IMG/VR virus record: IMGVR_UViG_3300028610_001412
Coordinates: 1 to 42,282 of that record
DNA: 42,282 nucleotides
Direction: 5' to 3' (one strand)
From: a virus
Shown here in pieces: positions 1,611-39,306 of this stretch (its first letter is position 1; each line of letters starts with the position of its first letter). The notes beneath the pieces are model-generated. The model worked only from the letters and a program-made list of their open reading frames with translations, made no database searches and was not told the origin of the DNA. Made by a program: the position numbers and the translations under genes.

Positions 1611-2504
1611 ATGCACACTGAATTAATAGAACATCAAAAGGTCTCTGCCATTGTGGAGAATGTCAAGCTGGCAATGGATGAGGCCGCGCAAGGTGTGGGC
1701 CTGCTCAACAAGGCCAAAACTAGGCTATTCCATACACTGGGTCAGGCAAATGACAGCCTATGGAATCACCGCTCCGACGTTTCGGACTATTCGTTTGGCG
1801 GTGACGTTTCCAGTGTCCTGGAAAGCATGAATAAAAACATCCGGCGCAATGCCTGGCGGTATCTTCTTAACCAGACCGGATTAATTGCAATGATGAGCCA
1901 GAAGGACCGCGACGAAATAGAAAAACAGGTAGAAGACGGCAAGACGCCCGACGTGACAGAACAAAATATATTTGCTTTTTTTGAGAACATGAGCGAGGAT
2001 CTCCCCGACCTGCTTAACAAGCATGTAAAAGAGGTTTTCGACTGGCTAAAGCCCGGTGCACATATGCACGACTACAAGACAAACAAAAAGTATCGCATCG
2101 GGGCAAAGGTTATTGTCGAATGGATCGCGGAGCATAACTACAGCGGAGGGATGAGGCTGAATTATAGGAGGGAAAATAATATAACAAGTCTGGACAATGT
2201 TTTCAGGCTGATTGAGGGCCGAGGGATAGGCAAGTATCCGGACGATCTGAGGACGCGATTAAATGAAGCTATGAGAGATAATGCAATGCCCTTTGAAGAT
2301 GAATATTTCAGGATCAAATGGTTTAAAAAAGGCACAATGCACCTTGAAATAAAGCGGGCTGACCTACTGAAAGAACTTAACCGTATAGGCGGCGGCGTGG
2401 ACCTACCAGGGCCAGAGCACGAACGGCCGGGAAGAGCGAGCAAGCCAGGCAATGGCAAAGGAAGCGCGGCCACCTTGCTAAAAATGGGAATCAACCAAAA
2501 ATGA
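1611..2504 (+). CDS. DUF4942-like protein (297 aa)
   Basis: The protein resembles the DUF4942 group seen in phages and mobile elements: an N-terminal helical part, a middle segment with SLDNVFRLIEGRG, and the conserved ending YFRIKWFKKGTMHLEIKR followed by a DLLKELN helix (about residues 235-260). DUF4942 domains are often found next to or fused to DNA methyltransferases, but the biochemical role is unknown. The start follows AAAGGAGG. The last codons and the stop (NQK, TGA) lie inside a repeat tag shared with the end of the 3464-3649 gene, and the C-terminal 35 residues are low complexity (Gly, Pro, Lys). Confidence 0.65.
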   Translation: MHTELIEHQKVSAIVENVKLAMDEAAQGVGLLNKAKTRLFHTLGQANDSLWNHRSDVSDYSFGGDVSSVLESMNKNIRRNAWRYLLNQTGLIAMMSQKDRDEIEKQVEDGKTPDVTEQNIFAFFENMSEDLPDLLNKHVKEVFDWLKPGAHMHDYKTNKKYRIGAKVIVEWIAEHNYSGGMRLNYRRENNITSLDNVFRLIEGRGIGKYPDDLRTRLNEAMRDNAMPFEDEYFRIKWFKKGTMHLEIKRADLLKELNRIGGGVDLPGPEHERPGRASKPGNGKGSAATLLKMGINQK

Positions 2505-3767: not shown

Positions 3768-5958
3768 AGGACCACCACTCGAGGGCGGTTACTGTGGCTC
3801 GGAACTCGTCAAGGCGCGCGAAGGATTCAATGTAGAATTTCCGGCCAGAGAACAGCCCGCCTGAGATATCCACGGTGTCGCCCGTCTGTAGATCGAAATG
3901 CTCAAAGTACAGAGGGAAGGTGATCGTCATAAGAGGGATCTTGCGCTGTAGGAGGACGTGGGCCAGGACGTTGTCAGCCATAACCGAGTCCCTGATCGAG
4001 AAGAAGTCCACGGTGTCCACATAATCGCCGAACTTTGCCTGGCTGGCAGCGTCTGAGATCTCCGTGGTGCCGTCCCAGTCACCTTCATTGAGGGAGGGCA
4101 GGTAATTGATCTTAAAGCGCCCTGTGAGCACGTTGATCACATCCGTGACGCTTCCCTTCTCAAATTGGAATAAAGCCCGCTCTCCGGCCAGCTCCGACTC
4201 GTCTATGGTCCTCACGGCCGCAGGTGCCACATCGGGGATGAAGTTCAGGAACCATGAGCCCCTGTCATAGCTGATAGTGCTCCGGGCCTCGAAGGCCAGG
4301 CGCTTGAGTTCCTTTGACGGCGTTATCGTCTTGTTGAACACCTGACCGAATTTATACCCGCCCGCGATCTCCGCTGCGTACAGGACGCCAGCGGCGTCAA
4401 AGGACGCCTGGTCTATCTCGGAGAGGGAGAACTCCATGCGGTCGACCAGGAAGTGCTTTATCACGTCCTCCGGGCGCTCGATGAGGACACCGACCCCGCC
4501 GAAATCCCCGGTGCCGTCAACCGCCCAGTCAGCATCGACCGTGATGTCGTCGCCCACCACGATCCTGCTTGTGGCCGTGGCCTCGAGGGACTTGTCCTGG
4601 AGGATCTGCTCGTTGAAATAATTAACGCTCTTTGAAAGCTCCAGAACGTCCATCTGGCCGGTAATGATGATAACCCTTGTCAGGGTATCCCAAAGCCCAT
4701 CATTGTGCGTGTGCGTGACCGTGGCGCTCTCTGACGCCTCGATCGTATGCCTTGTGATCTTGCGGCCGGTGCCGTCCGGATCCGAGGAGATGAGATCGAA
4801 GACGACAGGGTCAGCTCCGCTTGTCTCCACTATCTGAGCGGAGTGTGTCTGTGACACGATATCCCCGAGCGACGTGGACTCATACGACACCCACGCCTGA
4901 TTTAAGGCCGTAGGAAGCAGTGAGACGCCTTCTACCGTGCCATCGGCGACTCTGTCGTCCGAGACTATCTGCGCGGGCTTGCCTTTGGCCACACTCGTAT
5001 TGTCGGCCGAGGGGACGCGATCGCGGTTGACCGTCTTTGAGACCTCGAGCACCCGGATATCCTCGTCAATGGGCACGAGGTTTAAAATGGTCTCCCAGTT
5101 GCCCTGGTCCTGCTCGAGCACAAAGGTGCGACTCTGTCCGGCCGTAACGGTTAGCTTCTTCCTGAACGCCGCGCTCTTTGTCGCCTCGTCAAGCGCCATT
5201 GCGTAGACGCTGCCGTCTGATCCTCCGTCGTTCTGGAGCTGGATAGTGTAGGTCTGTTTTTTCACGACACCTGAGGCAAGCGCAAACGCTGCCCAGGCTA
5301 GCGGAGTCCCCGTCAGGCTCAAAGTGATAAAGCTGGCAGTATCGCCGTCCACCAGCTCGTCGTGAGATGCCTCGTTTATCTCAGCCACAACATCCTCGCC
5401 GGTCTCCCTTATGCTTGCCTGCTCCTGGTTCAGGGCGCGTTGTTTCTCCACGAAAGCCTGCACGTCTATCTCCACGACCGAGAAGCCCGGCCAGTCCGCG
5501 TGCTCGTCGCCAGCCTGGCCGGTGTAGGCCGTAAAATCCTCTGACTGTTTCTTGCCGTCAATGTAGAGGCTGTCGATGGACTTGACCGGCTCCTTGCTTA
5601 CCAGGTAGACGTAATTGTCCCTTGCCTCGTAGACCGTCCTGGATATCCTGTGTTCCGCTGCGGTAGTGCCGTCAAAAGCCCTGGTGACCGTGAACGTCGT
5701 CCCGGCCTTGACGGTCACTCTCATGCGCTCGAAGCCTACCTGGACAGTGAAGGGAGCTGCGGGAAAGCGTGAGGCGTCCTCAACCACGATCGACGTTGCC
5801 GAGGCGGAGACGGCCGCTGCCAGGAATGCGGTAGCACCGCCCACGATGCAGTGGGCCCGGACGCCGTCCACCGTGCCATACCCAAAGTTCGGGCGTCGGC
5901 CGATGTCGGCAAGGTCGATGTTAGGGAAGTCGTCGGCCGACAGGGGAATGGGGATCAT
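3766..5958 (-). CDS. tail tip / receptor-binding region protein (730 aa)
   Basis: This is the last and largest gene of the tail module, which in siphoviruses is the place of the central tail-tip (hub or host-specificity) protein. The N-terminal part (residues 1-150) has a beta-rich, Val/Thr-rich domain; the middle contains two similar stretches (around VLEVSKTVNRD and VLELSKSVNYF, each following a WETILNLVPI or LWDTLTRVIII segment), suggesting an internal duplication. The C terminus (LQTGDTVDISGGLF, then YIESFARLDEFRATVTALEW) is typical of phage tail-tip proteins. The start overlaps the preceding stop (ATGA). The exact role is inferred from position. Confidence 0.6.
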   Translation of the reverse strand: MIPIPLSADDFPNIDLADIGRRPNFGYGTVDGVRAHCIVGGATAFLAAAVSASATSIVVEDASRFPAAPFTVQVGFERMRVTVKAGTTFTVTRAFDGTTAAEHRISRTVYEARDNYVYLVSKEPVKSIDSLYIDGKKQSEDFTAYTGQAGDEHADWPGFSVVEIDVQAFVEKQRALNQEQASIRETGEDVVAEINEASHDELVDGDTASFITLSLTGTPLAWAAFALASGVVKKQTYTIQLQNDGGSDGSVYAMALDEATKSAAFRKKLTVTAGQSRTFVLEQDQGNWETILNLVPIDEDIRVLEVSKTVNRDRVPSADNTSVAKGKPAQIVSDDRVADGTVEGVSLLPTALNQAWVSYESTSLGDIVSQTHSAQIVETSGADPVVFDLISSDPDGTGRKITRHTIEASESATVTHTHNDGLWDTLTRVIIITGQMDVLELSKSVNYFNEQILQDKSLEATATSRIVVGDDITVDADWAVDGTGDFGGVGVLIERPEDVIKHFLVDRMEFSLSEIDQASFDAAGVLYAAEIAGGYKFGQVFNKTITPSKELKRLAFEARSTISYDRGSWFLNFIPDVAPAAVRTIDESELAGERALFQFEKGSVTDVINVLTGRFKINYLPSLNEGDWDGTTEISDAASQAKFGDYVDTVDFFSIRDSVMADNVLAHVLLQRKIPLMTITFPLYFEHFDLQTGDTVDISGGLFSGRKFYIESFARLDEFRATVTALEWWS

Positions 5959-6407
5959 ATTGAATCGCCCACCACCCTGACGGACGTGTCCGAGTTGTCA
6001 ATATCTACTTGGATGGTACCTGCCGCGTCCGAGGTGATCAATAACCTCATCTCAAACGGCACGTCGTCCTCGAGGTCTCCGGCAGGCTCAAATACCACGT
6101 TGGCCTTGCGCTCGATGTTCGTGGGCCATGTGGCGGACGCTGAGGTAAAGATGCTCACCCAGGCCGCCTGTCCGGTCGGCCTTATCTGCCATTCGTAGAC
6201 ATGGTTAGCGGCGGCATTGGAGTTGAATGAATTAAAGGCAAGCTCCGCCTCCATGAAGGTCATAACCCCAACGAGTCCGGGGTTTATCCATGTGCGGAAG
6301 AACTCCTCGTCCGTAAAAGTGCCGATCTTGATTATTGATGTGCTTGCCGCCCCGAGGATCATGTTCGAGTCCAGGGCGTATTGCGTATGATCAAACGGTA
6401 TAGTCAT
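5955..6407 (-). CDS. tail tip-associated protein (150 aa)
   Basis: No family recognised. A beta-rich protein beginning MTIPFDHTQYALDSN and ending in a jelly-roll-like run of alternating hydrophobic residues (PFEMRLLITSDAAGTIQVDI), as in small tail or fibre proteins. The start follows GGAGGATGGA. It overlaps the 730-residue protein by four bases and sits between two tail-tip genes, so a structural role is likely but inferred. Confidence 0.55.
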   Translation of the reverse strand: MTIPFDHTQYALDSNMILGAASTSIIKIGTFTDEEFFRTWINPGLVGVMTFMEAELAFNSFNSNAAANHVYEWQIRPTGQAAWVSIFTSASATWPTNIERKANVVFEPAGDLEDDVPFEMRLLITSDAAGTIQVDIDNSDTSVRVVGDSI

Positions 6408-6416
6408 TCCATCCTC

Positions 6417-6920
6417 CTAAGATCTCAGGTCCGCGAAGAACTCCACGCTCGAGGCCCTGCATGTGAATTCCCTTTTTGTGATCCCTTTGGGCTCGTCAAG
6501 CACGCCCACGAACACTATCTCCGCCTCTGTGGGCAGATTGTCGTCGTCAAGATGCAAGGCGCGCACAGTGACTTTCGCTCCCTCAAATGGATACGTCTCG
6601 CCAGCCTCGATAAGGAAATCGAAAGCCATGAACGGACGGTTTTGAAACAATATCGTCACAGGTGAGTTCAGGGAGTCGGAGTCAACACGCGAGAGTTCCC
6701 TGGCAATGCCGGTCACGGCCAGGAGATATCGCTCGTATCTGTAAATGCTATATTCGAGGTTGCGGTTAGAGAGCCTCAGGACCGGCGCGCCCGCGCCGAG
6801 CAGCTCCACGTCCACGAGCCAGATGATCTTCGCCCTTCGCCTGTTGCGAAGTATCTCCAAGGCGATACCGCCCCAGGGTGCTCCGCCCCAAGGGAATTCG
6901 CCCCATCCGAACGCAGCCAT
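6417..6920 (-). CDS. tail tip/baseplate-like protein (167 aa)
   Basis: The N terminus (AFGWGEFPWGGAPWGGIALE) is Gly/Trp-rich as in several phage tail proteins, followed by a beta-rich domain ending in FVGVLDEPKGITKREFTCRA, which resembles the end of DUF2163-like tail-tip proteins. I chose ATG 6920, which overlaps the preceding stop (TGATG); the upstream TTG has no ribosome site of its own. Its place between the distal genes suggests a hub component. Confidence 0.55.
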   Translation of the reverse strand: MAAFGWGEFPWGGAPWGGIALEILRNRRRAKIIWLVDVELLGAGAPVLRLSNRNLEYSIYRYERYLLAVTGIARELSRVDSDSLNSPVTILFQNRPFMAFDFLIEAGETYPFEGAKVTVRALHLDDDNLPTEAEIVFVGVLDEPKGITKREFTCRASSVEFFADLRS

Positions 6921-7996
6921 CAATCACCTGTCCTGTTAATTGTGAAGTTCATTTCCCTTACAGTGGAAGCGCGAGGAGTACCTGCAAGGTCTCGCATCCT
7001 TACATCGAAATAATCACCGCCCGCAGCTTCTACGATGGGACACCCGAAGGAAGCGTCTCCATAAGTTGTTGCGGCAGTCCCTCTAATGGACCCGGCAGCG
7101 TTTACGATCGCGGCATTATGGAATACGTGTATTTCAATATCCCTTGCTGCGGCGTTTGTGGACTTGTAAGAGACCTTGCCGCAAAGAGAATAATGCCCGC
7201 CACACTCTGAGCATATAGCTATATTTGCCACTGCTGCGCTGATAACGGTGTTATCGAACTCACCGGCAGTCAAGGTGTTTATTATTTCCCATAAACCAGT
7301 TTGCGTCTGCATTGTGATCTCAACGTCGTCGTTATAAACCGTACCATGCGCGTGAGTCAATGCCCCCGAGAGCTCAAATGTTTCACCAGACATGTCTTTG
7401 TAATAAAGAACACTATTATCAAGAGCGTATACTTGACCTCTATTATTCAAAGTTGAGGGGTGAGCTGCCAGCTCTATAAGCTTGGCTGTGTCTGCGGGCT
7501 GCACTGTGTTTGTGGGGCCGGTCTCCATTAATCTGTTTGCTATAAAATCAGATAAGGTCACAAAATTTGCAATAGTGACAGAGTTCCCGATCGTAAGGGA
7601 GTTTGAAAGGTTCAAAGAATTTAATATCAAATCGGCTGTAGTGTCGAGGTCCTGGGGCGTATTGAAGAAGACGCCGCCCGCACCATCGGTCTGAATGGAT
7701 GTCCTGTTGTCTACGCCGGTTATGAAGTCCAGGAGATCTCCGTCCTCGAAACACGAGCCCGAATTAAAGATAGCCAGGCGGTCCGCTGTCATAATTGAAA
7801 CGCGGTTGCAGAAAAAGGTGTCAAGTACCCCGAAGTTGTCCGAGACCTTTGCGCCCCAGCTCGTGCCGGAGTCCCCCACCTGAGGAATGTGCAGGTTGAT
7901 GTTCGACGAGTTCGTAAAGGCGTTCCCGAAATTGGCTATCAGGATAAAAAGAACAAGCAGGATCAAAGCGATAAGATTTCCGTATTTGTTTTTCAA
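6920..7996 (-). CDS. tail fibre-like protein with N-terminal membrane or signal segment (358 aa)
   Basis: The start is TTG at 7996, seven bases after GGAGG and overlapping the preceding stop (TTGA). The protein opens with KNKYG and a strongly hydrophobic segment (NLIALILLVLFILIANFG, about residues 6-24), then GNAF, like a Sec signal or anchor, which is unusual for a virion protein. The middle holds a short repetitive strand region (LSNSLTIGNSVTIANFVTLS). The C-terminal 120 residues are beta-rich with DIEIHVFHNA and YFDVRMRDLAG, resembling C1q/TNF-like head domains of fibres. A receptor-binding role is inferred. Confidence 0.55.
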   Translation of the reverse strand: MKNKYGNLIALILLVLFILIANFGNAFTNSSNINLHIPQVGDSGTSWGAKVSDNFGVLDTFFCNRVSIMTADRLAIFNSGSCFEDGDLLDFITGVDNRTSIQTDGAGGVFFNTPQDLDTTADLILNSLNLSNSLTIGNSVTIANFVTLSDFIANRLMETGPTNTVQPADTAKLIELAAHPSTLNNRGQVYALDNSVLYYKDMSGETFELSGALTHAHGTVYNDDVEITMQTQTGLWEIINTLTAGEFDNTVISAAVANIAICSECGGHYSLCGKVSYKSTNAAARDIEIHVFHNAAIVNAAGSIRGTAATTYGDASFGCPIVEAAGGDYFDVRMRDLAGTPRASTVREMNFTINRTGD

Positions 7997-27217: not shown

Positions 27218-27580
27218 TTATAGTTTTTTTCCGCAGTGCGGGCAATAGCTCAGCCTCAACGCCAACAAGTTCACTGAGTGCGGGCACTGGAACTTGAACG
27301 TGACAATTGAAGTGCCGAGCAACAATGCCTGGAGGCTCAAAAGACAACAGTCGTCCCTTTCCTTGAGTTCAGGGGACAGTGCCATCATTTCCTTAAAATC
27401 ACGCCTCGACTTCGAGATATCCGCGAGCACAGAGTCTATCTGAACTGTCGCCCGCCCATCGGGCATCGCCTCCCTGATCGCGTCGCTCACCGGCGTCTGA
27501 GTCTCCGGCTTCTTTTTAAGCTCCTCGTGCATCCTCCTCGATTCCTCGTCCAGGTGTGGCAGCTTACCTTGATCAGACAT
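27218..27580 (-). CDS. hypothetical protein with C-terminal zinc ribbon-like end (120 aa)
   Basis: No family recognised. The N-terminal half is charged and helical; the C-terminal part has FKFQCPHSVNLLALRLSYCP followed by HCGKKL, which gives a CPH...CPHC pair typical of zinc binding. It overlaps the GemA gene by eight bases. Confidence 0.6.
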   Translation of the reverse strand: MSDQGKLPHLDEESRRMHEELKKKPETQTPVSDAIREAMPDGRATVQIDSVLADISKSRRDFKEMMALSPELKERDDCCLLSLQALLLGTSIVTFKFQCPHSVNLLALRLSYCPHCGKKL

Positions 27581-28031
27581 TCTCTCCCGCCTTTCTCTGC
27601 TGGGTTTCCTTCATCTTTTTGAGATACTCGATCAACCTGCTCGCCTCGCCGATCGACTGTGGCCACGCGACCCCGAGCATCCTCAGGCAGTACCCCTTCA
27701 ACCCCCGGACCTTGCCCTCGCGCCATTTGATATCGTTCGCCAGGGCGTCTATCTTCCCCTTCTGCTCGGGCGTGGGAAAGTCGGCCATGCTCTGCGGTTT
27801 CTTTTTCGTCCGGATCCCGCGCTCCCTGGCCTCGAGCTTCTTAGCAAGCAGGCCGATGAACTTCCGGCGCTCGTCGGCTGTGAGGTCTGCCGAAGAGCTG
27901 CTCCAGAAATTATCCAGCATGAAGTTCCTGTATTCCTCGTCCCCAAAGCCGATGTCTTTCTTGAGGATGTGGATCCTCGCCAGGTCGGCGCGCCTCTGGT
28001 CCTCCGGGCTCCTCTGAGTTCGCGCGCTCAC
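27573..28031 (-). CDS. gemA: GemA-like regulator, Mu gp16-like (152 aa)
   Basis: The protein matches the GemA (DUF1018) pattern: LARIHILKKDIGFGDEEYRN, ADLTADERRKFIGLLAKKLE, then ALANDIKWREGKVRGLKGYC and MLGVAWPQSIGEASRLIEYL. GemA of Mu changes host gene expression and DNA supercoiling during infection. The start is GTG 28031, overlapping the stop of the preceding gene (GTGA). Confidence 0.85.
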   Translation of the reverse strand: MSARTQRSPEDQRRADLARIHILKKDIGFGDEEYRNFMLDNFWSSSSADLTADERRKFIGLLAKKLEARERGIRTKKKPQSMADFPTPEQKGKIDALANDIKWREGKVRGLKGYCLRMLGVAWPQSIGEASRLIEYLKKMKETQQRKAGENV

Positions 28032-28879: not shown

Positions 28880-29758
28880 TCAGAACAATGCCTCCTGTTT
28901 TCTCTCGTCGTCACGATAGACATATTCATCAAATGGGATATGCTCGTGCCACGACAGTCTTGACCAATATTGCATCAGCCTCAGCATTTCAATCTCCGCT
29001 TTTTCGCGGGATCTGTATTCGTGAATCCACTGTTCAGGAAGATATTCGTTTTTCTTGAGGGCATAAAGCGGCTGATATCTCATCGGGTTAGGACGGATAC
29101 CTAGAACGTCCTTGACAAACGTCAGCCTGTAAAGATCATCCTCAGGCGATGAGTCATATCCAACGAGGGTATAAACACCTATGTTTTTGAGCCCGTAACG
29201 TCGCGCAACGATGATCGTATCTTCAAGGTCATGCTGACGAATTGAATTGTCAAAAGCGAACCTGATTTTCACGTTGTTCAGCTCTGTAAGTTTCTCTGCG
29301 TGTTCAGAGTTAAAAAGGCTAGAATCAAAGCCCTGATTGAAGTCCACGAAAGGAAGCGTTTTCAACGAGTCCACGACCTTGTTGAAATGTTTCATTGACG
29401 CGGCAGTAAGGTTGTTGTCGCAGACGATCGGCCGGATATCCCACTTCTTGAGTTCTATCAGTCCGCCCTCGATCGAGGGCACAGCACAGAATCCGCAGAC
29501 ATTCGGACATCCTCGAGTGGTGAACGTTGCCATTGGATTATGAAACGCCAGGGCAGGAAATACTGTGGACGCCTGGACATCTGCCACGTCGCCCAAGTAG
29601 TCCGGCATTAACATTACGGCCGGGCCGCCTGCAACGACCCGCTTTTTGCTTGTCTCGGCGATCTCACGAGCCCTCGGAAGGTCCCAGGTGAACACGACTG
29701 AGAGATAGAGCGTGTCCTTCGCAGTCCACTGTGCAATATCTTTCCGCCATTTATACAT
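28880..29758 (-). CDS. radical-SAM enzyme with B12-domain-like N terminus (292 aa)
   Basis: The motif RGCPNVCGFC (CX3CX2C, residues about 83-92) identifies a radical-SAM protein that binds a 4Fe-4S cluster. Before it, LSVVFTWDLPRAREIAETSK and VVAGGPAVMLMPDYLGD recall the Rossmann part of B12-dependent radical-SAM enzymes, but shortened. The start codon follows directly after the stop of the methyltransferase part, with GGAGGCGCG as ribosome site, so both are likely made together. It may modify a base, a nucleotide or a peptide; a joint role with the methyltransferase in DNA modification is inference. Confidence 0.8.
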   Translation of the reverse strand: MYKWRKDIAQWTAKDTLYLSVVFTWDLPRAREIAETSKKRVVAGGPAVMLMPDYLGDVADVQASTVFPALAFHNPMATFTTRGCPNVCGFCAVPSIEGGLIELKKWDIRPIVCDNNLTAASMKHFNKVVDSLKTLPFVDFNQGFDSSLFNSEHAEKLTELNNVKIRFAFDNSIRQHDLEDTIIVARRYGLKNIGVYTLVGYDSSPEDDLYRLTFVKDVLGIRPNPMRYQPLYALKKNEYLPEQWIHEYRSREKAEIEMLRLMQYWSRLSWHEHIPFDEYVYRDDERKQEALF

Positions 29759-30739
29759 TCACCGCGCCTCCATATTTAATAAAATGGCCTTGACCTTGCT
29801 TTGAGCTACCTGGCCGTTGCCGATGGCCTTGAGGCGGTTCGTGCGGTGTTCCTTGATCGTGGTGAGCCTCGGGTATATCAGCTCGAGGCAATGCCACGCC
29901 ATTGCGATTCTACCCGTTAATTCAAGGCCACCTTTTTTAGAATAGTAAAATGGCGTTCCGTGGCTAGGCCACCAGTTATTGAATTGCCTCTCCCACATTG
30001 CCCACACCTCGAGAGGAAGAGGCTCGAGCGATGTCCATCCCGGAGGCCAGCCCATAAGGCACTCCGTCCAGTCCGGGTTGAGCTGGCCACCTACTGGTTC
30101 ATTTTCCTTTATTACTGCTGTAAGATAAAATCTACCTAATTGATGCTTGTGGCTTTTAGTTCCTTTAGAACTTCTACTATTACCTTCCGACGCCCTGGGC
30201 GTCGGAAGCTGTTTTTCCGGCCAGAACTTTTCATTGATTCCCTGAACCTGGTCGCGCAATTTATAATGGCCAGTTTTATCTTTATACATTTGCATTATGC
30301 CGCCTTCGCCGTCGCTTGATGCTGGAGTGCGCCAATGCCTTTCGCCCGCGTCGACCGCTATCTGGTCTCTTAGATTATTCGGCGACTTCCGGCCTTTTCT
30401 GTGAGTGTATTCATAGTCAAGGGCCTTCTGTGATTTGCCCGGCATCCCGTCCATGCAATTCGGCGTCATATACATTTCAGAGTGGGGCCCTCTACCCTCG
30501 AGCTCGAGCACCTTGCCTGTGAGCGTGCGTCCGGAGGTGGGCCCCGTCCGTCCCTTGTCCGGCTTCCCGCAGAATCCGGCCGAGTCCATCACGGAGGGCG
30601 TCGGAATTATTCCACGATCTCTCATAACAACCTGGTCAGCTAAACGGACTTGCTGGTTTGATCGAGCCGTACCATTTAAAAGACATTTCGATGGTGTTGC
30701 CACATTATCTTTAGATCCTGAATCGGGAGTCCTCCACAT
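29759..30739 (-). CDS. C5 cytosine methyltransferase, C-terminal (TRD) part (326 aa)
   Basis: It starts at ATG 30739, ten bases after GGAGG and one base beyond the stop of the N-terminal part. The start (MWRTPDSGSK), GGQLNPDWTECLMGWPPGW (a stretch common near the end of phage cytosine methyltransferases), and the final NRLKAIGNGQVAQ (motif X) show that it holds the target recognition domain and the last motif. It lacks the SAM-binding and catalytic motifs and must act with the 210-residue partner. The overlapping upstream frame (to 31369) is a shadow of the N-terminal gene. Confidence 0.8.
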   Translation of the reverse strand: MWRTPDSGSKDNVATPSKCLLNGTARSNQQVRLADQVVMRDRGIIPTPSVMDSAGFCGKPDKGRTGPTSGRTLTGKVLELEGRGPHSEMYMTPNCMDGMPGKSQKALDYEYTHRKGRKSPNNLRDQIAVDAGERHWRTPASSDGEGGIMQMYKDKTGHYKLRDQVQGINEKFWPEKQLPTPRASEGNSRSSKGTKSHKHQLGRFYLTAVIKENEPVGGQLNPDWTECLMGWPPGWTSLEPLPLEVWAMWERQFNNWWPSHGTPFYYSKKGGLELTGRIAMAWHCLELIYPRLTTIKEHRTNRLKAIGNGQVAQSKVKAILLNMEAR

Positions 30740-30740
30740 A

Positions 30741-31373
30741 TTATTCGCGCCTCCAGGCCCAGATCCAGAGCCGCTTGCGTCTGTGGTTTGCTCCGGCGTC
30801 GTCAGCTCCCAGCACACACCATCGAGCATCATACCCCGCTTCGGCCAGGTCTCCCAGTACTCGTCCGAAGTAGCGGAGCCCCATAACCTTGAGCACGAAA
30901 CGAACGAAGCGCCCACCGCCCGGCTTACAATCTCCCGCGCCAAAAAGATCGAGCTGCCGAATTTTCTCCAGAGCGACGAGGGCGAATGCTTGCCCTGCGG
31001 AGAGCAACCCGGAGACGTTCTCCAGCTCCGCGTAGAGCGGTCGTATGATGCGAATGCACTCGATCGTTGGAGGCCACATGTTTCGCGGGTCGTTCTCTGC
31101 TTCGCCCTTGCCAGCCACGCTAAACGGCTGACAGGGAAAACCCGCTGAGATGATATCAACCAGGCCCTTATGCGCTTCGGCGTACCCTTCTTTAATGAAT
31201 GTTTTGATATCGCCGTATATCGGGGCCAGCGGCAATATGCCGTCCCGGATTCGCTGACGCAAGACTCTCTGTGGATAATCCTCGAACTCGACGTACCCGA
31301 CTGTAGTCCATCCCAGGCGATGGCTTGCAAGTAATCCTCCGCCCGCCCCTGTGAATAACGAGAGTTCATTCAC
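30741..31373 (-). CDS. C5 cytosine methyltransferase, N-terminal catalytic part (210 aa)
   Basis: Motifs I (LSLFTGAGGG), IV (GFPCQPFSVAGKGE with the catalytic Cys), VI (ELENVSG) and VIII (GANHRRKRLWI) appear in order; then the frame stops (TAA at 30741) and a second gene follows. This is like M.AquI, an enzyme known to be made of two chains. It transfers a methyl group from SAM to cytosine in DNA; the target is unknown. Split by stop codon, with its own ribosome site for the second chain, rather than a plain frameshift remnant, since both parts keep all motifs. Confidence 0.85.
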   Translation of the reverse strand: MNELSLFTGAGGGLLASHRLGWTTVGYVEFEDYPQRVLRQRIRDGILPLAPIYGDIKTFIKEGYAEAHKGLVDIISAGFPCQPFSVAGKGEAENDPRNMWPPTIECIRIIRPLYAELENVSGLLSAGQAFALVALEKIRQLDLFGAGDCKPGGGRFVRFVLKVMGLRYFGRVLGDLAEAGYDARWCVLGADDAGANHRRKRLWIWAWRRE

Positions 31374-31383
31374 CGCGCCTCCG

Positions 31384-34726: not shown

Positions 34727-34917
34727 TTGTCACCTATCCATTCGATATCGATGTTGAGCCCTCTACAGACCTTCTCGACCTTCTTCCTGGCCACGCTCTT
34801 TTTATCTTTCAGCGGGCCCACTATCTTGCACCCGCCGCCGAGCGAGACCGCGCCCTGGAACTTGATCTCGCCGTTCTCCTTGTGCGTGTGCTTGAGGACC
34901 AGGCCCTTCTTTTTCAT
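34723..34917 (-). CDS. hypothetical basic protein (64 aa)
   Basis: No family recognised. Lys-rich with a Gly-rich turn (IKFQGAVSLGGGCKIVGPLK) and a C-terminal helix. Overlaps both neighbours by four bases. Confidence 0.55.
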   Translation of the reverse strand: MKKKGLVLKHTHKENGEIKFQGAVSLGGGCKIVGPLKDKKSVARKKVEKVCRGLNIDIEWIGDK

Positions 34918-35417
34918 CGCGCGCTTACCTCCGCGTTCTTGAGAGCCTGCTTGACGATCTTCGCGGCCTGGGTGTCTATCAGCTTCGCAAACGCAACATC
35001 GCCGTCCTCAACCACGTTTACGCTGATCTTCTTCGCCTGCTCGACCGTGAGCTTTGCAACAGCGTCCTTGCTCACCGCTTCCTTTTTAATGATGAGCTGC
35101 GAGACCAGCTTCGGCAGGTGCTTCTTGATGAGCTTTATCGTCTTTTCCTCGTCAGGCACTTCGACCTTGCCGGTCTTCTTCTGAAACCCGTACTTCCACC
35201 CGAGGAGCTTCTGGCTCCGGGGCTTGTCAAATGCCTCGGGGTGTGCCTTGACCTCTTTAAGCAGAGCCGCCTCTGCGTCTGCCCTTTTCTTTGCAGCCCT
35301 TTTTAACAGCGGGACGTAATGGACAAGGAGCTTCATGTGGGCAGTGTTGAACCTGTCAGCCTTTTCCTTTAGCTCCCTGTGCGCGTTGAACAATGTTTTT
35401 GCCAGCTTATCGAACAC
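34914..35417 (-). CDS. Gam-like host-nuclease inhibitor candidate (167 aa)
   Basis: The N-terminal helices (LFNAHRELKEKADRFNTAHM) and the central part (AFDKPRSQKLLGWKYGFQKK, TGKVEVPDEEKTIKLIKKHL) match the layout of Gam-like proteins, which bind DNA ends and guard phage DNA from RecBCD. In Mu, gam is also in the early region after the transposition genes. The similarity is only at the pattern level, and another DNA-binding role is possible. Confidence 0.5.
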   Translation of the reverse strand: MFDKLAKTLFNAHRELKEKADRFNTAHMKLLVHYVPLLKRAAKKRADAEAALLKEVKAHPEAFDKPRSQKLLGWKYGFQKKTGKVEVPDEEKTIKLIKKHLPKLVSQLIIKKEAVSKDAVAKLTVEQAKKISVNVVEDGDVAFAKLIDTQAAKIVKQALKNAEVSAR

Positions 35418-36378: not shown

Positions 36379-37572
36379 CTACCACACCAGACTTTCGACA
36401 ACGGCCTTCGTGACCTTTTCCTCGCCCACGCGCGCGGCCTCGTTCATGGCCTTGACCATGATGTTGTTTACGATAAGCGGGAAGGCCATGGACCTCACCA
36501 CCTTGCCGTCCTTCATCACCACCAGCTTGGATTGCATTTCCTCCAGGCCCCCCGGAGTAATGACCTTATGCAGGTTCACCTTTATCTTTTTGAACTTGTG
36601 CGCCAGATACGCTTCGAACGAGCCATTCAGCCCCTGTATCCGCGTCAGATGGCAGCGCGCGATAAAAGGCTCAAGCTCCGGGTGGTTTGTCTTGTTCAGG
36701 AGCTGGTCTTCGAGTTCGAGCTGACCGATGAGCACGATGCCGATCGTCTTGCTGAATCCATCCTCTATCTCGTAGAGCGCCTTCAAGAGCAGCACGGCCT
36801 TTGGCGTGAGCATGTGCGCCTCGTCAATGATGATCGCGACCTTTTCCCCGGCTCTGTATTTGTCGACCAGGATGCGCTCGAGCTGGCGCGCGCGCCTCTC
36901 AGTGCCGGACGCGGAGTTCCTGCCCACGATGTCCTGCATGATCGCGTCGGCCAGGGCCTTCTCGGTTATCTTGCTCTTGTCCAGGCTCCTGGGGCGGACC
37001 ACGCAGATGCTGTCGTCTTTGTCCAGCTCTGCCAACAGCCACTTGAGCGCGTTCGTCTTCCCGGACCCGACGTGGCCTGATATGCCCATCAGCCCCTGGC
37101 TCGTTGCCGCGCTCTTTATCGCGAGGAAGATGAAGTTCGTCTCCGCGCTTAAAAAGAGATCGTCCACACCGTTGATGTCCCGGTCGAACGGGTCCTTAGG
37201 TAGCCCCCACTTATCTAATGCTTTTTTCTCTAACAATTCCGCCTCCTTCCCGATGTCCTCGGGGTCGCAGCCCTTGGCCGCGCCCTGGTCCACCGTGTTG
37301 CCATGTTCGTCCACCATGTCCCACAAGTCACTGAGCCTCAATCCCATCCTCTCGAGGCAGGGTTCTATCTCCTGCTTGTCTACGAGGAAGTTCTCCACCT
37401 TCTGGCGGAAGGCTCCGGGCTTTTCCCTTGTGGGCAGGTCCCCTGTGTCCAGCACCTTGAATATGGTCGCCTTGGAGTAAGCACCCTTGCCTCCCGGCTT
37501 GAGGATGCCTTTGCCAAGCGCGGCCATGCTCACATTGCATTTAATCATCACAGACTTGAGTCTTAGGGGCAC
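36379..37572 (-). CDS. MuB-like AAA+ ATPase, transposition target protein (397 aa)
   Basis: The ATPase core has Walker A GHVGSGKT (166-173) and Walker B VAIIIDEAH (245-253). An N-terminal part (KPGGKGAYSKATIFKVLDTG) and helical middle suggest a DNA-binding HTH as in MuB/TniB-like proteins. In Mu-type phages MuB binds target DNA with ATP and delivers it to MuA. Its place directly after the transposase gene supports this. It ends beside the early operon's small genes. Confidence 0.9.
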   Translation of the reverse strand: MPLRLKSVMIKCNVSMAALGKGILKPGGKGAYSKATIFKVLDTGDLPTREKPGAFRQKVENFLVDKQEIEPCLERMGLRLSDLWDMVDEHGNTVDQGAAKGCDPEDIGKEAELLEKKALDKWGLPKDPFDRDINGVDDLFLSAETNFIFLAIKSAATSQGLMGISGHVGSGKTNALKWLLAELDKDDSICVVRPRSLDKSKITEKALADAIMQDIVGRNSASGTERRARQLERILVDKYRAGEKVAIIIDEAHMLTPKAVLLLKALYEIEDGFSKTIGIVLIGQLELEDQLLNKTNHPELEPFIARCHLTRIQGLNGSFEAYLAHKFKKIKVNLHKVITPGGLEEMQSKLVVMKDGKVVRSMAFPLIVNNIMVKAMNEAARVGEEKVTKAVVESLVW

Positions 37573-37590: not shown

Positions 37591-39306
37591 CTAAACCGCC
37601 TCCAATTGATTCGCCTCGCCGTGGTCCGTGTCGAGCAGACGGCCGAGGCGTTCGTATCTTTCAGCTAGTTCCTGCAGGTCTCCGGACTTGACCTGGTCTC
37701 CGCATTCAGCTTTTATCCTCCTGTTGAGTTCCGGGCTTACCTCTCCAAGCGCGCCCGCCACGAGCTTTATCAGGTCCATAACCGGCAAGAGGGTCTCGCC
37801 GATCTCCCTGTCGATCTCGATCGTGTGGCCCTTGCGCGGCAGATAGACGCGGTTCCCAAGCTTGTCCGCATGTATGTTGAAAGCGACCGTCCCGGCGTAG
37901 GGGATCGAGTCTCTTTTACGGCCGTCCTCGCCGTATGCCGCGTTCTCGATGCTCTTCTTTGTTTTTTGAATGACAGTCTCGGGCGTGGACTTGAATTCCT
38001 GACCGGCGACAGCGTCGTATTCTGTAAAGCGGCCGTCCACTAGCTGGACGGGCTTTGCCTCGTAGCTCTGGCCCTGATATTCGACAGCGATAACCGGGGC
38101 TATCCAGGGCTTGAGGATCGCCTGGACCTTGGCCTTTCTGTAGACTCCAGGAATGTGTTTGATGTTGTACTCTTCGCCCCTGAACCGGATGTGATAGCGA
38201 CCGTCCACAAGGCAGGTCTGCGCCGGGTTAGCAAACAGGTCCTGCATTATCTCAGGCGCGGGGATCTCGCGGAGCTGGTCCGGCTTTATCTGGATCCAAC
38301 TCTCTGTCCGCGTCATTTTTGTACGGGTGTGGATGCGCTCCGCATTGTGCCAGATCGCGAAGTCCAGGGCCCATTCGTTAAGGGTCTCTATGTCGTAGGC
38401 TGGCTCGACCCTGAGAGCACTCTCAAAACACCCTTCAAGCTGGTTATGAAACCCCTCGACCGACCCCCTGGTCCTCGCGTTGCCGGGCATCGTGGGAGGT
38501 ATCTGAACGTCGAGGTGTTCGAGCATCGCAAGCACGGCTCTTGACTTGTTCGCCGAGCCCGCGTCCATCATTAAGATTGAAGGTACGCCCCTGAACGGAT
38601 ATCGCTCGTCTTCCTTGTGTCCCCAGGCCCTCTGCAGGAAGTCAAAGAGGTTGATCTGGTTCTCGCCTTTGGCGTCGTAATAATAGAAGAAGAACGCGCC
38701 GCTGAAATGGTCTACGAGCACGTAGCGGTAGAGCCTGGTTTTTTGTTTGAGATAGTTCTCGGGCTTGTTCTTGTTGAACTCGCTCTCGCGCATAATTCCG
38801 AGCTTCCCGTTCCTGAGATAATATTGGATGCAGATGGACGGGTCAAACTGGTGGACGTGGTTAGGATGCAGGGATCGGAGACCGATGTGGGCGTCTTCGG
38901 TCGCAAGATGCATCTTCGAGAGCTTCCTTTCTTTTAATATCCGGTTTAAGGTCTCGACAGTGACCTGCCCGCGCTCAATTATCCCGTTGTCCTCTGCCAT
39001 TTGAAGTGCGCGCCAGGTGGGCATTATCGAGCCTTTTATTTCACGCCGCGTCTCGTAGCGCAGACCCACGATATATTCGATCTGCTGGTCCGTGATATCG
39101 CACTTTGATTCGCCCTTGTCTTTGCGCTTTTTCCGACCCGACCAGAATCCAAGTTTATTTGCTATCCGGTAGAGCTGGGAGACCGATTTCCCGGTCAGCG
39201 TCTGGTATTCCTTAATAATGGCCGCGCGCGCGCCTGGTGCGGCCGCGATCAACCTGTCTGCAAAAGCTGCCTGCCAGTTGGCGGCTACTTCTTGGCCGGA
39301 TGCCAT
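37591..39306 (-). CDS. MuA-like DDE transposase (571 aa)
   Basis: An N-terminal DNA-binding part (RIANKLGFWSGRKKRKDKGE; IMPTWRALQMAEDNGIIERG) precedes the catalytic RNase H fold. The acidic triad is likely Asp155 (PNHVHQFD), Asp248 (ILMMDAGSAN) and Glu284 (RGSVEGFH), with VLVDHFSGAFFF between. A beta barrel-like domain follows (KVQAILKPWIAPVIAVEYQG), with a C-terminal helical tail (MuB contact in Mu). It joins phage ends to target DNA for replication or integration. The start overlaps the preceding gene by 22 bases. Confidence 0.92.
   Translation of the reverse strand: MASGQEVAANWQAAFADRLIAAAPGARAAIIKEYQTLTGKSVSQLYRIANKLGFWSGRKKRKDKGESKCDITDQQIEYIVGLRYETRREIKGSIMPTWRALQMAEDNGIIERGQVTVETLNRILKERKLSKMHLATEDAHIGLRSLHPNHVHQFDPSICIQYYLRNGKLGIMRESEFNKNKPENYLKQKTRLYRYVLVDHFSGAFFFYYYDAKGENQINLFDFLQRAWGHKEDERYPFRGVPSILMMDAGSANKSRAVLAMLEHLDVQIPPTMPGNARTRGSVEGFHNQLEGCFESALRVEPAYDIETLNEWALDFAIWHNAERIHTRTKMTRTESWIQIKPDQLREIPAPEIMQDLFANPAQTCLVDGRYHIRFRGEEYNIKHIPGVYRKAKVQAILKPWIAPVIAVEYQGQSYEAKPVQLVDGRFTEYDAVAGQEFKSTPETVIQKTKKSIENAAYGEDGRKRDSIPYAGTVAFNIHADKLGNRVYLPRKGHTIEIDREIGETLLPVMDLIKLVAGALGEVSPELNRRIKAECGDQVKSGDLQELAERYERLGRLLDTDHGEANQLEAV

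Follow-up and report, generated by a model that had tools for sequence, protein, structure and literature searches.

In DNA-cytosine-C5 methyltransferases, motifs I to VIII provide the catalytic loop and the S-adenosylmethionine (AdoMet) site, and the variable region with motifs IX and X provides base recognition and part of the fold. Two-chain enzymes such as M.AquI and M.EcoHK31I occur naturally, and artificially split M.SssI was most active when the break lay between motif VIII and the recognition domain, as stated in the portion of PMC3404938 used here. In phages, a C5-methylase-type enzyme starts the multi-step cytosine hypermodification of DNA by the CmoA/CmoX/CmoY system (excerpts of PMC12783734), and the Thermus phages Cumys and phiMa carry a radical S-adenosylmethionine (radical-SAM) gene for which an unknown DNA modification has been suggested (excerpts of PMC11437467). 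The locus described here occupies positions 28880 to 31373 of the virus record IMGVR_UViG_3300028610_001412, the whole 42,282-base stretch of which is called the window below. It holds a catalytic methyltransferase chain (chain A), a second frame with the recognition region (chain B) and a radical-SAM gene. We consider it highly likely that chains A and B form one C5 methyltransferase encoded in overlapping reading frames, with the chain B frame at 29759-31369. The features of the locus are as follows.

30741..31373, minus strand: chain A (alpha), the putative catalytic C5 methyltransferase chain, 210 residues, with motifs I to VIII and a GTG start (PF00145, phrog_363, alignment A3)
29759..31369, minus strand: chain B (beta), a 536-codon open frame, +1 relative to chain A, with the recognition region and motifs IX and X (phrog_1008, stop avoidance, conservation tests)
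28880..29758, minus strand: radical-SAM protein, 292 residues, phrog_9298 family, ATG start (PHROG match, alignments A1 and A8, structural model)
31367..31373, minus strand: GTGAATG, the overlapping starts of chains A and B, 4 bases apart
31128..31142, minus strand: motif IV, GFPCQ, with the catalytic cysteine, Cys81 of chain A (sequence; invariant in A3)
30870..30995, minus strand: insertion of about 42 codons in chain A, from motif VI to FGRVLGD (A3)
30035..30079, minus strand: motif IX (NPDWTECLMGWPPGW), in chain B only (pattern; better-confidence model segment 432-465)
29807..29836, minus strand: motif X (RLKAIGNGQV), chain B (pattern)
29486..29509, minus strand: CX3CX2C [4Fe-4S] motif of the radical-SAM protein, Cys84/Cys88/Cys91
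29756..29771, minus strand: GGAGGCGCGGTGAATG, ribosome-binding site and stop-start junction of chain B and the radical-SAM gene (identical copy at 31367-31382)
30746..30754, minus strand: GGAGGCGCG, ahead of the internal ATG 30739

The three open reading frames (ORFs) of a preliminary description of this DNA, 30741-31373, 29759-30739 and 28880-29758, and the junctions between them are as it gave them: the TAA of chain A and ATG 30739 are one base apart, 29759-30739 (minus strand) encodes 326 residues from that ATG, and the TGA of chain B directly abuts the radical-SAM ATG. Motifs I, IV, VI and VIII were correctly placed in the first chain and motif X in the second, where motif IX, which was not named, is found by pattern as well. 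The two-chain methyltransferase proposed there stands as to its two chains but not as to its layout. The second chain had been confined to 29759-30739, but its frame has 536 open codons, beginning with ATG 31369, which falls four bases inside the GTG start of chain A, and lies in +1 beneath the entire catalytic gene. What was described as a split is therefore roughly 630 bases of overlap and not a simple break. The 16-base block GGAGGCGCGGTGAATG, reported ahead of the first and third genes, is real and represents a ribosome site with a coupled start. It has exactly two copies in the window, against 0.05 expected at up to two mismatches, and the final ATG of its first copy is ATG 31369. The shorter GGAGGCGCG is present three times (0.73 expected; 5 of 100 shuffles reach three).

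Chain A is assigned by its motifs, FTGAGGG (I), GFPCQ (IV), ENV (VI) and HRRKR (VIII), to the DNA-cytosine-C5 methyltransferases; the motif names given to segments of both chains follow what we take to be the usual scheme. It matches PF00145 (1.3e-26; 94.2 bits against a cut-off of 22) and phrog_363 (1e-48). In the window it ends after motif VIII, the same site, between motif VIII and the recognition domain, as the best break in M.SssI. The insertion of about 42 codons in chain A is also read through in frame by chain B, and the related locus L179 has an insertion at the equivalent place. Chain B itself gave no Pfam match at E<=1. As queries, 29759-30739 found no match in viral contigs and one phage in the phage search, and the 536-residue frame found no match in plasmids.

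Conservation of the +1 frame was examined in two sets of relatives. Set 1 contained 88 of 91 loci (the window and L010-L099, with the partial loci L069, L070 and L094 left out), and set 2 the nearest relatives of the window (L179-L257), of which 77 of 79 were used for the stop test. Expected stops were derived by permuting synonymous codons within each gene, with the +2 frame as control. All 10 relatives first examined have a +1-frame ORF across the catalytic gene. In set 2, the +1 frame contains 9 stops where 363.1 are expected, and 72 loci are free of stops against 1.18 expected; the +2 frame has 887 stops against 873.7. Past codon 70, set 1 shows 82 stops against 421.6 in the +1 frame and 1065 against 1037.7 in the +2 frame, and many of these 82 can be the natural stop of chain B, which ends ahead of the chain A stop at 73 of the 88 loci. 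The overlap in the window has no stop in 210 codons (4.86 expected), except for the TGA within the start GTGAAT. That the +1 opening is a by-product of chain A conservation was rejected by the synonymous permutation and the +2 control.

The amino acid sequence read from this frame is conserved as well. Under a permutation null, the +1 translation of the window compared with 87 loci had a mean z of 4.37, against 1.83 for the +2 frame, and compared with 67 near relatives (thinned from 80 partners, L196 and L245 being left out) a mean z of 3.53 against 1.37. Because relatedness alone raises both frames, the difference between +1 and +2 is taken as the signal. The similarity peaks at chain A codons 169-189 (z 3.48) and 106-126 (z 2.44), which coincide with better-confidence strands of the chain B model at residues 179-188 and 105-117, both inside the overlap; the motif IX stretch is also among the better-confidence parts of that model. 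Given this +1 signal and these strands, it is very probable that chain B extends as far back as roughly residue 100.

For its start, ATG 31369 is favoured, since the start arrangement is common to the relatives and the spacing of the ribosome site is suitable: GGAGG lies 8 bases ahead of it, as it does ahead of the radical-SAM ATG, and only 4 from the GTG of chain A. In set 1 the first possible chain B start is exactly 4 bases after the chain A start at 74 of 88 loci, upstream of it at 8 and later at 6. The second codon of chain A is biased in the same sense: Asn2 is AAT in 83 of 83 cases, against 373 AAT and 517 AAC among the other Asn codons, and AAT alone preserves the second ATG. TTG 31159 and ATG 30739 are the alternative starts.

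Several observations weigh against the long overlapping chain. Set 1 is a non-random sample, 80 of its members having been drawn by similarity to L019. In a table of 84 rows made up of the window, L010, L012-L014 and L179-L257, which holds the nearest relatives, the first start is 4 bases in for only 24 rows. Over the first 42 codons of chain A in the window, +1 conservation is no higher than the null (z 0.29 and -0.18), and these last two observations make the exact start of chain B in the window less certain. The chain B model is poor overall (mean predicted local distance difference test, pLDDT, 51; predicted template modelling score, pTM, 0.29), and a fold search with it gave helix matches only.

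One alternative is a simple break of the M.AquI type, with chain B beginning at ATG 30739 and the upstream +1 opening left as a relic of an ancestor with a longer overlap. A GGAGG is located 10 bases ahead of that ATG, and the break would fall where split M.SssI tolerates one best (PMC3404938, same portion). However, the match to phrog_1008 improves from 51.1 to 76.1 bits, the latter in three stretches, when the query is the whole 536-residue frame and not 29759-30739 by itself, and both the missing stops of the overlap and the conserved segments at codons 106-126 and 169-189 oppose a relic, so that we regard this arrangement as quite improbable. A programmed frameshift near 30750 that fuses both chains into a canonical enzyme would give the order I-VIII, recognition region, IX, X, and one relative, L018, does exist as a single chain, but most relatives have motif X in chain A and a chain B that ends close to the chain A stop, so that no canonical fusion would result there and we give this explanation very little credence. 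A sequencing error at 30741 was rejected, as the layout with a long chain B recurs in 12 of the 83 other rows.

The distribution of motifs between the overlapping chains follows two forms. Motif IX of set 1 is found in chain B at 78 of 88 loci, in chain A at one (the single-chain enzyme of L018) and at 9 not at all, and motif X is found in chain A at 85 of 88 and in chain B at one, the window. The 84-row table has motif IX in chain B for 50 rows and in chain A for none, and the pattern did not find it in 34. In 13 of the 84 rows, including the window, chain B outruns chain A by more than 300 bases, and 10 of the 13 show motif X in chain B. Closest in layout is L179, with 57% identity in chain A and chains of 230 and 494 residues; its chain B has recognition repeats, an IX-like segment and motif X. 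Judged by these patterns, there is one plan, in which chain A includes X and a nested chain B has IX, and it occurs in another form whose chain A stops after VIII and leaves the remainder to chain B.

We inspected 11 annotated records, and none has both full frames. Only chain A is annotated in ABMM1, S72, L015, L019, E. coli PT62 and Salmonella phage S9-5, and chain B alone in SOVA965, L016 and L017; the Dorothy annotation has chain A and a shortened chain B, and the L018 record is single-chain. Thus the second frame usually goes unannotated, and half of such an enzyme is overlooked. The annotated gene expressed alone should yield an inactive enzyme, and phage methylomes would be assigned wrongly. 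In a prophage region of E. coli PT62 from pigeon (L269), two genes for cytosine methylases, separated by about 2 kb, are each entered as a single gene.

In the arrangement that we favour, chain A would supply the AdoMet site and the catalytic cysteine, and chain B the target-recognition strands, motif IX and motif X. Assembly of the two into one enzyme is the natural reading in view of the break site of split M.SssI and the natural two-chain enzymes, and the assembled enzyme would methylate cytosines at a particular sequence, most likely shielding phage DNA against host restriction. The radical-SAM protein would then be made from the next gene, stop-start-coupled to chain B. It is unusual for two halves of one catalytic unit to share the same DNA, and the evolution of such a frame overlap is directly testable here.

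The third gene had been called a radical-SAM gene, and this holds by its match to phrog_9298 ('radical SAM domain protein', 5.6e-28) and its model (pLDDT 95.1), which together settle the class; the Pfam radical SAM match alone is below cut-off (16.7 against 29.5 bits). The protein carries CPNVCGFC. A search for the family found 12 phage records, all below 60% identity, and 80 of 278 confirmed viral radical-SAM loci were kept. Alignment A5, with 54 sequences, retains the CX3CX2C cysteines, DNN and DFNQG; Cys84 and Cys88 are invariant and Cys91 is present in at least 90% of the 54. In one family member, at L104 2927-3802, directly behind a 527-residue C5 methylase, serine takes the place of the third cluster cysteine (CPNRCEFS, A8).

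The shortened B12-like part described earlier is borne out by alignments A1 and A8 and the model. The first beta-alpha unit of the family's N-terminal domain is absent from the window protein and present in L003-L009, and its absence is a trait of the whole sub-family to which the window belongs. The Pfam B12-binding match (0.059) aligns residues 15-64 to positions 53-114 of a 121-position profile, which does not make a complete Rossmann domain. Foldseek gave MiaB (1.9e-5) and AprD4 (3.6e-5), and the VIA Z-scores were 16.2 for MgmA (258 aligned, 3.9 A), 16.1 for AprD4 (259, 3.5 A), 15.2 for TsrM (275, 4.6 A) and 14.4 for MiaB (246, 3.6 A), the top three lying within about 1 of each other; sequence identity to these four is 14-17%. 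As modelled, the protein folds like MiaB, MgmA and AprD4, and its B12-like part is incomplete. The second [4Fe-4S] cluster of MiaB and RimO is presumably held by three N-terminal cysteines. Since the window protein has four cysteines in all (Cys84, Cys88, Cys91 and Cys113) and an incomplete Rossmann domain, we infer that it is expected neither to hold a second cluster as MiaB does nor to bind cobalamin in the ordinary way. The likeliest single guess for its substrate is a nucleic-acid base.

The coupling of the radical-SAM gene to the methylase, which the preliminary description had proposed, fared less well than the methyltransferase, so that the methylase half of that description is now firmer and the cassette half weaker. 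The radical-SAM gene is largely found away from C5 methylases, a pattern that the preliminary description itself had named as one that would refute its proposal: one lies within the fetched flanks of 11 of 87 phrog_9298 family loci (window excluded) and none in the close relatives L002 and L100. Starting from the C5 loci, the radical-SAM gene is nearby in 0 of 80 (L020-L099) and 2 of 79 (L179-L257), and in a scan of bacterial genome contigs only L265 of 10 radical-SAM loci has a C5-methylase match. N6/N4 methylases are the commoner neighbours, at 28 of 87 family loci, in a survey that missed the C5 gene of L148, where the gene picker took the overlapping frame; the C5 count includes it. What does stand is direct contact with an overlapping-frame C5 pair in five divergent phages: the radical-SAM gene is directly behind the pair in the window, L148, L180 and L268, and directly ahead of it in L239, where it is a phrog_9298 member. 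Another C5 methylase is in contact with the gene in L104 and L168. From a rough rate of 278 in 2.9 million contigs, itself a lower bound, 0.015 radical-SAM genes are expected in 159 loci and 2 were seen, for which P is 1e-4; a family ten times as common would raise it to 0.01. In L148, at 4509-7589, an N6/N4-type methylase stands in the same row as the overlapping C5 pair and the radical-SAM gene.

Overall, the gene accompanies phage DNA methylases in general, mostly those of the N6/N4 class, and its tie to C5 chemistry is conjectural. With the 87 loci thinned to 75, and 150 genes sampled from each group (209 near, 296 far), DNA-methylase Pfams account for 13 of 150 genes within 1 kb (8 N6/N4, 3 C5 and 2 Dam) against 2 of 150 beyond 3 kb (p 0.006). 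With duplicate loci kept in, DNA methylases make up 35 of 380 genes within 2 kb against 14 of 437 beyond (p 3e-4). ParB (5 of 150) and PAPS reductase (4 of 150) also occur among the near genes, and neither is among the 25 families listed for the far sample. A recurring row of the radical-SAM gene, one or more ParB-like genes and a PAPS-reductase-like gene is seen in L114, L117 and L122, and presumably resembles IbrA/IbrB pairs. DndC-type phosphorothioation, which such neighbours elsewhere bring to mind, was rejected for the window, as no such gene stands beside the cassette among the proteins scanned. At 10 of 87 radical-SAM loci, for example at L171 3713-4456, DUF5131 (PF07505) genes occur within 6.5 kb, and these genes have their own stretch of clustered cysteines. 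As a recurring neighbour of methylases, the radical-SAM gene is a concrete lead for a new DNA modification.

Two explanations for its presence were weighed. A target other than DNA (tRNA, a host protein or a metabolite), with the enzyme merely sharing an early region with methylases, has somewhat less than an even chance. The best folds, MiaB (tRNA), MgmA (protein) and AprD4 (aminoglycoside), and the adjoining ParB and PAPS-reductase genes favour such a target; the proximity of DNA methylases within 2 kb does not. Rather unlikely, in our estimate, is that the enzyme further alters the cytosine marked by the methylase, as had been proposed. The five contacts with overlapping-frame pairs and the methylase enrichment within 1 kb agree with it, and known phage C5 enzymes do feed hypermodification (CmoX/CmoY; excerpts of PMC12783734), but the low count of C5 methylases in the family flanks, the commoner N6/N4 neighbours and the close relatives with no C5 methylase argue against it. 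The fuller version, in which the cassette would methylate cytosine and then apply radical chemistry at the C5 methyl to give an undescribed cytosine, having been assembled several times (window, L148, L180, L239 and L268), is more doubtful still. A hypermodification role for the radical-SAM gene is possible, and the cassette is a legitimate hypothesis of low probability.

By gene content the 42,282-base record is a Mu-like phage. Profile matches also identify portal, terminase and tape-measure genes, in addition to the following.

37591..39306, minus strand: transposase, phrog_310 (profile match)
36379..37572, minus strand: transposition protein, phrog_296 (profile match)
34914..35417, minus strand: Gam match, weak
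27573..28031, minus strand: GemA match

A DUF4942 protein at 1611-2504 (plus strand) matches PF13708 (1.8e-44) and also phrog_6263, 'DNA methyltransferase' (1.5e-10). Its gene is near the window end opposite the transposase, which we take to be where Mu carries mom. No family named Mom was among the PHROG matches of the window proteins scanned, a subset of the ORFs, and the results speak neither for nor against the earlier suggestion that the radical-SAM protein replaces Mom in protecting DNA.

When the locus is set beside described systems, phrog_363 and phrog_1008, both named 'DNA methyltransferase', match chain A and chain B respectively, and the library makes no mention of two halves in overlapping frames. 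The radical-SAM protein belongs with phrog_9298, but in its sub-family the N-terminal domain is without the first beta-alpha unit; it is alike in fold to MgmA, AprD4, TsrM and MiaB, but has no second-cluster cysteines and an incomplete N-terminal Rossmann part. The C5-methylase-type enzyme of the CmoA/CmoX/CmoY system is presumably single-chain. Unlike the window, that system is described with no radical-SAM component in the text of PMC12783734 as available (0 matches for 'radical'), and the Cumys/phiMa module, compared by description only, has a DUF483 gene as companion and no C5 methylase. In the open-access literature, covered mostly by title and abstract and with most subscription papers outside the search, we found no paper that treats a pairing of C5 methylase and radical-SAM enzyme, or phage C5 methylases encoded in overlapping frames, and no C5 methylase case was seen in the portions consulted of papers on frame transitions (PMC3711429) and viral overlaps (PMC8903798).

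Among the two-chain enzymes, M.EcoHK31I is likened to the window by description of its layout only. Its small chain, we assume, lies in another frame within the large chain, and the second chain of the window is likewise in another, overlapping frame; unlike M.EcoHK31I, the window has motif X and the recognition region in chain B as well, and its chain A ends after VIII. The M.AquI genes, as we understand them, barely overlap, whereas the chain B frame of the window overlaps all of chain A and is open and conserved. In the portion of PMC3404938 used here, M.EcoHK31I has motif IX alone in its small chain, as most of the relatives described here do, and M.AquI has I-VIII in one chain and IX-X in the other, as the window does. 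The layout of the window resembles M.EcoHK31I and M.AquI combined.

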